Shown in pieces: positions 40 through 4,109 of a stretch of 44,177 nucleotides of DNA. Made by a program: the position numbers and the translations under genes. The notes below the pieces were generated by a model that was not told where the DNA came from, searched no databases, and saw only the letters and a program-made list of their open reading frames with translations. Each line of letters starts with the position of its first letter. The first letter of the stretch is position 1. Origin of the DNA: an uncultured Cryomorphaceae bacterium (lineage in GTDB: Bacteria; Bacteroidota; Bacteroidia; Flavobacteriales; UBA7430); contig CACDER010000005.1 in assembly GCA_902551855.1 (NCBI GenBank), positions 1 through 44,177 on the forward strand, given 5' to 3'.

Positions 40-1884
40 ATGTGCGGAATTGTTGGATATATTGGCTCAAAAAATATTTATAAATACTTAATAAATGGTC
101 TAAAGAGATTAGAGTACAGAGGATACGATAGCTCAGGGATTGCTGTATTAAAAGATTCTAAAATTGAGATTTTTAAGAAAAAAGGAAAAGTTTCAGAGCT
201 TGAAGAGTTAATCACGGGAGATATTAATTCCTTTAAAATTGGAATTGGGCACACAAGGTGGGCAACGCACGGAATACCAAATGATATAAATTCACATCCA
301 CATTATTCCCAATCAAAAAAATTAGCTATAATTCATAATGGTATTATTGAAAATGCAACAGTAATTAAAAAAGGTTTAAAAAAAAGAGGTTTTAGTTTTA
401 CTAGCGATACGGATACAGAGGTTCTAATCAATCTTATAGAATTTATTAAAGACTCTGAAAAGGTGTCATTAGAAAAAGCTGTCAAAATTGCTTTAAATCA
501 AGTTGTAGGGGCATATGCAATAGTTATTATAGATCAAGATAATGAAGATCAAGTTATAGTTGCAAAAAAAGGAAGCCCATTAGTTTTTGGTCTTGGAGAA
601 AAAGAATATTTCATAGCATCTGACCCTTCTCCATTTATAGAGTTTACAAACAAGGCAATATATCTTGGAGATGAAGAGGTTGCAAAAATTTCTTTAGAAA
701 AAGGAATTAATATAACCTCAATTTCTAACCAAGTTAAAAGACCAAAAGTTCTTGAATTAGCTATGGAACTTGAAGATATTGAAAAGGGAGGTTATGATTA
801 TTTTATGCTTAAGGAAATAAATGAACAACCAAAATCAATTTTTGATACTTTAAGAGGGAGGTTAAAACCAAAGACAGGAATAATTACTTTGGGTGGGTTT
901 ATAGAATACGAGAAAAAATTTTTGAATGCAAAGAGAATAATTATTCTAGGGTGCGGCACTTCCTGGCATGCTGGATTAGTTGGGGAGTATTTAATTGAAG
1001 ATTTTGCTAGAATCCCAGTTGAAGTTGAGTATGCTTCTGAATTTAGATATAGAAATCCAATAATTACAGAACAAGATATAGTTATTGCTGTTTCTCAATC
1101 AGGAGAGACAGCTGACACATTATCTGCAATAAGTCTTGCTAAAAGAAAGGGAGCTACCATTTTTGGGATTTGTAATGTCGTAGGCTCTAGCATTGCCAGA
1201 GAATCTCATGCGGGAGCTTATACCCATGCTGGTCCAGAAATTGGAGTGGCATCAACTAAAGCATTTACTGCACAAGTAACAGTTTTCATATTGATAGCAC
1301 TAATTTTATCAAATAAAAAGGGAATAATTTCAAGTGCAGATTATCAATCTCTAATAAATGAATTAAATCATTTACCAAATAAAGTTGACGATGTGCTTAA
1401 AAATGTTAATTCAAAAGCCAAGTATATTGCCAGTATTTATAAAGATGCATCAAATTGTTTATTTTTAGGAAGAGGAATTAATTTCCCAGTTGCACTCGAA
1501 GGTGCTCTAAAACTTAAGGAAATTTCTTACATACACGCTGAGGGTTATCCTGCTGCAGAAATGAAACATGGGCCAATTGCATTAATTGATGAAGATATGC
1601 CAACAGTAGTTATTGCGTCTCAGACGGAAAATTATGAAAAAGTTGTTAGTAATATACAAGAAGTTAAAGCTAGAAATGGAAAAGTAATTGCAATAATTAA
1701 TGAGGGGGATAATGAGGTTAGAAATCTTGCAGACCATGTCATAGAAGTCCCACATACAGATGAAAGATATAGTCCATTAATAAATACCATTCCTCTTCAA
1801 TTGTTATCATATCATATTGCAGTCATGCGGGGATGTAATGTTGATCAACCACGAAATTTAGCAAAGTCGGTGACCGTAGAGTAA
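40..1884 (+). CDS. glmS: glutamine--fructose-6-phosphate aminotransferase (isomerizing)
   Basis: MCGIVGYIG N-terminal Ntn glutaminase motif; two SIS domains (GCGTSWHAGL, SQSGETADT); ends NLAKSVTVE. Confidence 0.98.
   Translation: MCGIVGYIGSKNIYKYLINGLKRLEYRGYDSSGIAVLKDSKIEIFKKKGKVSELEELITGDINSFKIGIGHTRWATHGIPNDINSHPHYSQSKKLAIIHNGIIENATVIKKGLKKRGFSFTSDTDTEVLINLIEFIKDSEKVSLEKAVKIALNQVVGAYAIVIIDQDNEDQVIVAKKGSPLVFGLGEKEYFIASDPSPFIEFTNKAIYLGDEEVAKISLEKGINITSISNQVKRPKVLELAMELEDIEKGGYDYFMLKEINEQPKSIFDTLRGRLKPKTGIITLGGFIEYEKKFLNAKRIIILGCGTSWHAGLVGEYLIEDFARIPVEVEYASEFRYRNPIITEQDIVIAVSQSGETADTLSAISLAKRKGATIFGICNVVGSSIARESHAGAYTHAGPEIGVASTKAFTAQVTVFILIALILSNKKGIISSADYQSLINELNHLPNKVDDVLKNVNSKAKYIASIYKDASNCLFLGRGINFPVALEGALKLKEISYIHAEGYPAAEMKHGPIALIDEDMPTVVIASQTENYEKVVSNIQEVKARNGKVIAIINEGDNEVRNLADHVIEVPHTDERYSPLINTIPLQLLSYHIAVMRGCNVDQPRNLAKSVTVE
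1846..1884 (+). other. attTn7-like sequence in the glmS 3' end
   Basis: Codes for the conserved QPRNLAKSVTVE* C-terminus, the segment bound by TnsD-type target selectors; followed at once by accessory-type sequence. Confidence 0.5.
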
Positions 1885-1886
1885 CT

Positions 1887-2209
1887 GCAAGGAACCACTA
1901 TTCTTACCCCTACTCATTCAACGTAAAGTTCACAATATCAGTAACTACCACCAAATTGTGGGAGTCTAATTATAGTGAATATCAACAATTTTTATTTGAT
2001 AAAATAAAGGGTTTTAAGGAGTGTATCCTTACCCCCTTAGGGTACGGATTTCTAAGATATTGAACGATGAGGGACTTCTAACACCCCGTAAAACACCATT
2101 TACCAATACAAAAGTGTTCTCAATCTATCAAAAAGGACTAAAAAGAGAGGAAAGAATGAATAGAAAAGATATTGTAGAGGTATCACCAGTTGAAATTGAA
2201 CCATTTTAA
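1887..2209 (+). pseudogene. frameshifted recombinase-like ORF remnant
   Basis: One frame reads ...NHYSYPYSFNVKFTISVTTTKLWESNYSEYQQFLFDKIKGFKE...LGY then stops; the adjacent frame (listed ORF 2021-2209) continues RISKILNDEGLLTPRKTPFTNTKVFSIYQKGLKREERMNRK, resembling the ISxxLNexGxxTPRGxxFtxxxV region of recombinase proteins. Confidence 0.4.
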
Positions 2210-2354
2210 ATTCCCATTAATAGTAAACTCACCTCATCACTACCCTATCTCCATAATTTACCATAAAATCTAACACCCTTTAACACCTTTTCTGTCAAAT
2301 AAAAAAATCCCTGAGAAATTAGTGTTATTAATTGTGGAATCATATTTATATATG

Positions 2355-2750
2355 AATGAAAGTGGTAAGCAGTTACCACAGACTCAGGTGTCCAACAAAG
2401 GGTAAAACACCTGTCACCCAGTATCGAAGAGGTTCAAATCCTTAAACGATATCTCGTAATGTTAATGGGTCAGACGTCGGTTAGTAATCTATAGGATTGA
2501 AATAATATCTAAACATAATGGATGAGGTTCACCGATAGGGTCGAAAGATTTGTAGTATAAATCAGATATGGGTGACAACGAACTGGTCTGAGGAAATCTA
2601 CATTGTGAATTGAGACTTAAAGTTCTCTGAGGGAGTAAAAATCCTTTAAGGGGATTGGTGTATTAGGTTATCAACCTATACAATGTTTCAGTTAACAAGT
2701 AAACTGAAACGATGAGATGATTCTGAGAATCAGAAACACTCATCAAAGGT
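2355..2750 (+). ncRNA. candidate large structured RNA, family unknown
   Basis: Dense perfect stems: 2362-2368/2373-2379, 2385-2391/2407-2413, 2422-2426/2447-2451, 2640-2646/2650-2656 (two GU), 2664-2669/2673-2678, 2685-2693/2702-2710, 2711-2716/2739-2744 enclosing 2718-2723/2727-2732; long-range 2413-2419 (GTCACCC)/2570-2576 (GGGTGAC). No long ORF. Confidence 0.6.
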
Positions 2751-2779
2751 TAATTATTAAATAATAAGGAGATACAATT

Positions 2780-3040
2780 ATGAAGAAAGATTCAGGTCAA
2801 CTACATGGTGAGTTAACGAGTAGTTTATATCAATTTACAAAGGATATAGGCTATCATTTACCACCAGATAAAATATTTGATACTACTACATCCTTAATTG
2901 ATGTATTTGAGAGTTATGAAAGGTATAGAGAATCCATTATTTCAGAAACATCAAAACAATTAGAAGATAGGTTTGGAGAATTACCTATTGAGAAACAAAA
3001 AAGATTAAAAGAAATATTTCAGAATGGAGTAAAAAAATGA
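2780..3040 (+). CDS. small hypothetical protein (86 aa) of an accessory element
   Basis: ORF preceded by AAGGAGA Shine-Dalgarno-like sequence; stop overlaps next start (ATGA). Confidence 0.65.
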   Translation: MKKDSGQLHGELTSSLYQFTKDIGYHLPPDKIFDTTTSLIDVFESYERYRESIISETSKQLEDRFGELPIEKQKRLKEIFQNGVKK

Positions 3041-3279
3041 ACGATAGATTACTAACTAAATATGAGGTTATGGAAACCTTAAAAATCAGTAGAAAATACT
3101 TTGAGAAATTGGTAAAAGAAAAAGAACTACCAATGATTCAAATAACTCCATATAAGAGATATGTAAGAAGTTATCACCTCAATCGATACATTGATGAACG
3201 AACCATCAATAAACCTCAGGAGATAACCCAAGAATCAGAAACTGATAATTTTAAATGGAAGAATATATGGAGAAAGTGA
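3037..3279 (+). CDS. helix-turn-helix / excisionase-like DNA-binding protein
   Basis: LLTKYEVMETLKISRKYFEKLVKEKELPMIQI...RSYHLNRYID resembles MerR/Xis-type HTH_17 proteins; ATGA overlap with upstream ORF. Confidence 0.65.
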   Translation: MNDRLLTKYEVMETLKISRKYFEKLVKEKELPMIQITPYKRYVRSYHLNRYIDERTINKPQEITQESETDNFKWKNIWRK

Positions 3280-3444
3280 TGATATTAAATCACTATCCAA
3301 TCACCCCTATCTATTTTAATTAACTCAATAGAATTTTAAATTATGTATATTTGAAAATACATAGAGAGAATAAACATAATACGTTTATCCCTACGTTGTG
3401 GTGCATTAAAAACGAAACTTGAAAAATCAGAATATGGAATTACA

Positions 3445-3753
3445 ATGATTTTAGCAGCTATAATATTTATCATACTCGGAATTTTAATAAAATACGGAAA
3501 AATGTATTGGCTAATTGCTGGCTATAATACTATGCCGAAAGAAGAAAAAGAGAAATACAACATTGCAGGAATAGCAAATGTATTCCGGAACGTGATGTTC
3601 GGTATGGCTTTAATCGTCATTTCTGGATATTTAATAACTGAATTAACTGAAAATCCCAATATTCAAAATTATGCTTTTTGGACTTCAATGATTATCGGAA
3701 TACCATACTTGTTGATTAAATCAAACTCGAAGAAATATAAAATCAAAAATTAA
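3445..3753 (+). CDS. small membrane protein, DUF3784-like
   Basis: ORF with about three hydrophobic segments; YNTMPKEEKEKYNIAGIANVFRNVMFGMALIVI pattern typical of DUF3784 proteins. Confidence 0.6.
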   Translation: MILAAIIFIILGILIKYGKMYWLIAGYNTMPKEEKEKYNIAGIANVFRNVMFGMALIVISGYLITELTENPNIQNYAFWTSMIIGIPYLLIKSNSKKYKIKN

Positions 3754-3755
3754 AA

Positions 3756-4109
3756 ATGAATTTGCCCTTTGATAACCTTTTATTCTTAATTCCATCATCA
3801 TCTGGAATAATTTTTATGCTGGCAGGATTTATAATGCTAAAATTTCCACCGAAAAAAATAAATGGACTCTATGGATATAGAACTTCAAGCTCAATGAGAA
3901 ATCAAGAAAGATGGGATTTTTCACAAAGATACTCCTCTATTGAAATGATTAAACTTGGAGCACTTTTGACTTTAAGCTCAATTTTTGGATTAATATTTAA
4001 GCCTGATGGTATAATCGGAATGTTTTTAGGATTGACATTAATGATAATAATGGTCGTATTTTTATCAATACGAGTTGAAAGAGCAATTAAGAATAAATTT
4101 ACGAACTAA
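3756..4109 (+). CDS. SdpI family membrane protein
   Basis: LKFPPKKINGLYGYRTSSSMRNQERWDFSQRYSS motif typical of the SdpI C-terminal domain; hydrophobic helices. Confidence 0.7.
   Translation: MNLPFDNLLFLIPSSSGIIFMLAGFIMLKFPPKKINGLYGYRTSSSMRNQERWDFSQRYSSIEMIKLGALLTLSSIFGLIFKPDGIIGMFLGLTLMIIMVVFLSIRVERAIKNKFTN

Follow-up and report, generated by a model that had tools for sequence, protein, structure and literature searches.

Only a few large structured RNAs are known from phages and mobile elements, most of them of unknown function. GOLLD, a large structured RNA found in phages and prophages, is often located near tRNA genes, and ROOL is a phage and prophage RNA with a complex fold that is often located near tRNA islands; the function of both is unknown (PMC12286853). 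OLE RNA, a large, conserved RNA of about 600 nt from Bacillota (PMC12054373), resembles the RNA considered here in being large and conserved and differs from it in length and host phylum and in that no Rfam match connects the two.

The window, by which we mean the whole 44,177-nt stretch of contig CACDER010000005.1 from an uncultured Cryomorphaceae bacterium, contains an RNA that, as judged from its relatives, represents a new, previously uncatalogued family of structured non-coding RNA of Bacteroidota phages and integrative islands. The novelty proposed in the earlier note was borne out by Rfam 15, of which no family reached its gathering score anywhere in the window and no relevant family matched positions 1885-3450 at E values up to 5. 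Scanned relatives searched at E up to 1 likewise gave no relevant family and nothing near the gathering score over the RNA, and the GOLLD, ROOL and intron covariance models (E up to 1-5) matched neither the window RNA nor the scanned relatives. A search of the open literature, with subscription literature outside its scope, found no paper with the motif or the RNA family.

GOLLD RNAs are often longer than 800 nt, whereas members of the window family span 230-390 nt and all copies found here came from hosts or phages of Bacteroidota type; the two are alike in being carried by phages or prophages, often near tRNA genes. A further hallmark of GOLLD is an RNA-only nanocage, formed as a homo-oligomer. 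ROOL shares the phage setting, but the window RNA is about half its size and has no Rfam match. HEARO and omega RNAs are also structured RNAs tied to mobile DNA, again differing in that no Rfam match was obtained, and none of TnpB, IscB or IsrB was identified in the flanking ORFs read, part of which were covered by profile scans. GOLLD and ROOL are the nearest systems in biology, but membership in either fails on the test with their models. The earlier note had likened the segment to the RNAs of phages and integrative elements; the association itself was found in the related loci, but a function like that of GOLLD, ROOL or HEARO is suggested by analogy only.

Relatives of the RNA

About 19 distinct relatives were found, all in Bacteroidota or linked to Bacteroidota, and they formed three subtypes: copies in genomic islands, phage copies, and a short version located next to a tmRNA or tRNA gene. 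A blastn search of 396 genomes of the window's order gave a single clear homolog (L009; E 9e-9), on a contig that also encodes a GIY-YIG endonuclease and a phage-type protein resembling Sak4; the weak blastn matches L010-L027 were assessed by blast comparison only. The 19-mer GATTGAAATAATATCTAAA, common to the window and L009, was present in five IMG/VR phage contigs (four distinct), and a variant of the pattern in three further phage contigs that were near-identical. With a 22-letter version of the motif, eight loci were found in 84,980 genomes, the L009 contig among them, and the RNA was present in all eight. When a covariance model (R1) was trained on the 133-nt core of seven island copies and on no phage copy, it recovered the phage copies with E values of 1e-11 to 1e-13. 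Further copies identified by covariance model were L069, L070, L077 and L078, together with the divergent subtype L079-L081.

The distribution of the RNA is low and patchy. Among 395 genomes of the class, three had the RNA, a further match (L071) being false and corresponding to a pyrG-like coding region. The window's order had two carriers in 396 genomes and one order had five in 108, and of 395 genomes of the phylum only the window's own carried it. Searches of phage and plasmid records with the RNA by blastn, and of viral contigs and phages with the ORF1 and HTH proteins, gave no matches. A first pattern scan of IMG/VR returned eight loci, each of which was chance or coding sequence, and L037-L040, L042-L044, L049, L051-L055, L073 and L075 were set aside as chance matches.

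Secondary structure and conservation

The features of the locus are collected in Table 1. No long ORF is present across 2210-2779, as the earlier note had observed, and the structured RNA occupies 2382-2667, or extends to 2745 if both 3' hairpins are counted (~290-390 letters).

Table 1. Features of the window locus containing the RNA.
Feature	Positions	Strand	Basis or remarks
glmS	40..1884	+	ORF list; RNA of relatives lies just after glmS
Decayed gene tail, like C-terminal part of a serine recombinase	1885..2209	+	Frames broken
Promoter-like CATATTTATATATG	2341..2354	+	By eye only; directly precedes RNA in island copies
5' hairpin GTGGTAA-GCAG-TTACCAC	2362..2379	+	Only in closest relatives L058, L069
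Conserved RNA, P1 through 3' AAGGGG motif	2382..2667	+	Alignments
Helix P1	2385-2391 with 2407-2413	+	Covariation
Helix P2	2416-2420 with 2466-2470	+	Partner-swap test; variable hairpin inside
Helix P3	2476-2481 with 2531-2536	+	Covariation; also in subtype 3
Helix P3b	2487-2492 with 2518-2523	+	Unguided RNAalifold prediction and covariation tests
P3c stem	2494-2497/2507-2510	+	Invariant loop UGAAAUAAU at 2498-2506
Conserved stretch (A/G)AACAUA	2511-2517	+	Follows P3c; AAAAAUA in few relatives
Helix P4	2551-2555 with 2598-2602	+	Covariation; P5 lies within
Helix P5	2562-2567 with 2586-2591	+	Covariation
Helix P6	2629-2634 with 2642-2647	+	Loop GUAAAAA; partner-swap test
Conserved 3' motif AAGGGGAUUNNURUGU	2648..2663	+	Alignments and sequences of relatives
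Two 3' hairpins	2685-2710, 2711-2744	+	Both kept, with changed sequence, in L070, L077
ORF1, 86 aa	2780..3040	+	ORF list
HTH_17 protein, 80 aa, excisionase-like	3037..3279	+	Profile matches

Compensatory changes were found in seven helices (P1, P2, P3, P3b, P4, P5 and P6). In each, strands paired better with their own partners than with partners swapped within the subtype (p<0.01 each; P1 0.0001, P2 0.001, P3 0.0004, P3b 0.003, P4 5e-5, P5 0.0002, P6 0.0096), in a test that included the phage copies, used strand windows hand-set from conserved neighbors and controlled in part for shared ancestry. RNAalifold, run unguided on ten island copies, predicted P1, P3, P3b, P3c, P4 and P5, with double changes in 19 of 43 pairs. 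A 36-pair structure, derived from this prediction and our own reading, had both-sided changes in 19 pairs versus 10.5 in shuffles. Its covariation score was 0.44, compared with 0.20 for shuffles and <=0.13 for slid strands, the slid control favoring this structure because it was derived from the same sequences. The pairs of P4, for example, read UUCUA/UAGAA, UUUUA/UAAAA, CCUUAA/UUAAGG or CCUUGU/ACAAGG in different copies. A 19-nt motif within the P3c region (2494..2517) was the same in most island and phage copies; subtype 3 kept P3 and P5, and the invariant loop motif was absent from it. Together, the aligned sequences prove that the fold of the RNA is upheld by matching mutations. A hairpin within P2 (2429-2443; GAGG-TTCAAAT-CCTT), present in the window's closest relatives only, resembles a tRNA T-arm. 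An ACAUA/UAUGU contact from the conserved stretch to the 3' end and a pairing of AAGGGG with the anti-Shine-Dalgarno, both proposed by eye, were rejected, not being upheld in every member.

The stems listed in the earlier note were all present, displaced by at most 1-2 bases, and its interpretation of the segment as a new structured RNA gained support from homologs that keep stems by compensatory changes. Its CAGGTGT/ACACCTG pairing is P1, which covaries in the relatives, and its two 3' hairpins (GTTTCAGTT and GATGAG/TGATTC) were retained in the nearest relatives; the GTGGTAA hairpin is in the sequence but is limited to the two closest relatives. Neither of the two long-range helices that it had proposed was supported by covariation. 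Of the seven possible pairs between GTCACCC (2413-2419) and GGGTGAC (2570-2576), all form in the window and in L061 but 5-6 in the other copies, G2413 reads A in both closest relatives, and P2 explains these letters better. For the other, CAGAC (2379-2383) with GTCTG (2586-2590), GTCTG instead pairs with 2562-2567 in P5, which has strong covariation. P2, P3, P3b, P4, P5 and P6 were absent from its list.

Folding energy was dropped as evidence as it was not specific to the conserved part. A 406-nt segment folded more stably than its 100 dinucleotide-shuffled versions (z -4.36), but the conserved 286-nt part alone had a z of about -1 and the relatives ranged from -1.4 to +1.2. Most of the energy excess came from simple flanking hairpins, and the evidence for the RNA is therefore its covariation and not its energy.

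Within the locus, the RNA of the window was 98.3% identical to that of L058 and 99.3% to that of L069, versus 67% for the adjacent recombinase-like pseudogene and 83-86% for the spacer. Against L058, identity was 98.2% over 2668-2779, 93.5% for ORF1, 91.2% for HTH and 64.6% for glmS; ORF1 and HTH were 91-94% identical in close relatives. ORF1 carries a stop codon in L058, and both ORF1 and HTH are lost from L069, yet the RNA is retained in each. Based on the near-identity of the RNA next to a diverged pseudogene, and on its outlasting ORF1 and HTH, these comparisons point to a recent transfer of the element and to selection on the RNA itself.

Mobile elements and attachment-type sites

Mobile elements of different kinds carry the RNA, which tends to lie near an attachment-type site, having been found repeatedly beside the 3' end of glmS, tRNA-Phe or tmRNA. 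With the window, four genomes have a copy directly 3' of glmS (also L058, L069 and L077), and the window element appears to use the 3' end of this gene for attachment. The intact counterpart of the recombinase-like tail in L077 had a weak PF07508 match that was below the cut-off (E 0.0098). ORF1 had no family match by profile comparison, and variants of it lie 3' of the RNA in L057, L061, L062, L063, L070 and L078; the HTH_17 protein matched PF12728 just below the cut-off (E 4.6e-5) and the phrog_66 excisionase (E 5e-5). The best explanation of the window copy is that it is the remnant of an element at the glmS 3' end that retains the RNA, ORF1 and the excisionase-like HTH gene. DUF3784 and SdpI-family genes (3445-4109), 3' of the HTH gene, adjoin this remnant. 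In L058, the remains of a possible second element (2988-3530) lie between glmS and the RNA-bearing element, with a repeat similar to the 3' end of glmS separating the two elements.

The L062 copy is in an 8-kb island that has tRNA-Phe at one border and a duplicate of the 3' end of this tRNA gene at the other. Besides the RNA, the island encodes ORF1, an excisionase-like HTH protein, a 515-aa tyrosine integrase, a ParB-N/N6-methylase and a regulator, with a cargo of mercury-resistance-type genes (named by eye). L063, from a MAG of another family label, was 95% identical to L062 over 834 bp, and in its genome, too, this integrase adjoins tRNA-Phe, a comparison in which MAG binning errors are possible. 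An integrase is upstream of the RNA in L046, and the L070 copy is directly after a superoxide-dismutase-like gene. Of the short forms, L080 is ~650 bp from a tRNA-Asp gene and L079 is at tmRNA, with a copy of the tmRNA 3' end preceding L081. The latter two (L079:896-1264 and L081:1247-1273) are in one genome, where each comes after the 3' end of tmRNA, present in one case only as a short duplicate; they have little in common except the 235-nt RNA and the tmRNA end, a pattern as expected of islands inserted in ssrA.

Several further neighbors were observed. GIY-YIG endonuclease genes adjoin the RNA in L009 and L074 and are near it in L045 and L070, these being unrelated elements. A RAGATH-1 hammerhead ribozyme above the cut-off (58.4 bits; L041:11409-11472, + strand) lies ~700 nt from the RNA of that phage contig and on the other strand. 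In L059 (5947-6138), a copy without the 3' half is just upstream of a type II CRISPR cas9-cas1-cas2 locus, identified by eye.

Possible functions of the RNA

We favor, as reasonably probable, a stand-alone RNA of mobile elements that would act in trans, based on the varied or missing downstream genes, the opposite-strand neighbors in L056 and L059, and the isolated units L079-L081. The genes 3' of the RNA include those for a helicase, a GIY-YIG endonuclease and a PAPS reductase and a gene preceding an endolysin; in L056 and L059 the gene that follows is on the opposite strand. Transcription would start from a promoter of its own just upstream of P1: a promoter-like CATATTTATA was seen by eye 5' of P1 in most island copies, as were Bacteroidota-type TAnnTTTG boxes upstream of three phage copies. 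The transcript would be released as a separate RNA of ~230-390 nt with the predicted ends and would act in trans for the element. Its active form would most likely be a particle of RNA and protein, or an oligomer of the RNA, with the P3 arm and its invariant UGAAAUAAU loop at the center. Such a particle or oligomer would support establishment or propagation of the element.

An alternative that we regard as possible but rather unlikely is that the RNA is a cis-acting leader, the 5' UTR of an ORF1-HTH messenger, which senses the state of the element or a ligand and controls excisionase output. The order RNA-ORF1-HTH on one strand in the window, L057, L061, L062, L070 and L078, and RNA-ORF1 in L063, where the contig then ends, is consistent with a leader, as is the distance of 100-180 nt between the RNA and these same-strand genes in most intact island copies. 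By eye, GGGGAUU, which follows P6, is in some members a second possible partner of the 3' strand of that helix, as in an expression switch, and a hairpin then a T run is ahead of ORF1 in L062 and L063. However, the phage copies are 40-330 nt before unrelated genes, an opposite-strand gene faces the RNA in two loci, the 99% identical RNA of L069 is without ORF1 or HTH, and these genes are also absent from the subtype-3 copies. If, instead, the RNA were the antitoxin of a type III toxin-antitoxin system, ORF1, a small ORF directly after the RNA and separated from it in some copies by a terminator-like hairpin, would be the toxin. Antitoxin RNAs of this type characteristically have tandem repeats and an adjacent ToxN-like gene. 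No tandem repeats were seen by eye in the RNA sequences here, and ORF1 is poorly conserved, matches no toxin family, is interrupted by a stop in L058 and is missing from phages, so that we consider this assignment highly improbable.

That the RNA is a self-splicing or self-cleaving ribozyme, perhaps spread with GIY-YIG homing endonucleases, appears improbable to us, if less so than an antitoxin. Its numerous invariant unpaired letters and its GIY-YIG neighbors would be in keeping with catalysis, and group I introns with GIY-YIG genes share both the phage setting and such neighbors; they differ in that no intron model matched and that the RNA is intergenic, interrupting no gene, in all loci read. 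Group I, group II and ribozyme families were unmatched over the RNA at lax thresholds, and a group I core (P7, G-binding site) was not recognized by eye. The decayed recombinase tail beside the RNA might suggest a decayed coding region or chance structure, the case that the earlier note had named as contrary to its proposal. Covariation in the homologs far above the shuffled and slid controls, and the RNA being the best-conserved part of the locus, refute that reading.

Beyond the stand-alone, trans-acting RNA that we favor, we raise tentatively the more specific possibility of a new trans-acting class common to Bacteroidota phages and small integrative islands, the islands perhaps competing with or exploiting the phages, with an active or binding site unlike those of known RNAs. 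The UGAAAUAAU loop and (A/G)AACAUA would form that site, and such an RNA might be a ribozyme, a scaffold of an RNP or a small RNA-only assembly.

The family adds a secondary structure that is open to testing in an RNA of compact size, and the L056 copy is in a named, sequenced strain, Belliella buryatensis 5C, which together make probing, deletion and cryo-EM practical. The presence of one RNA in both phages and integrase-bearing islands, near an attachment-type site, raises the question of what such RNAs do for mobile DNA.
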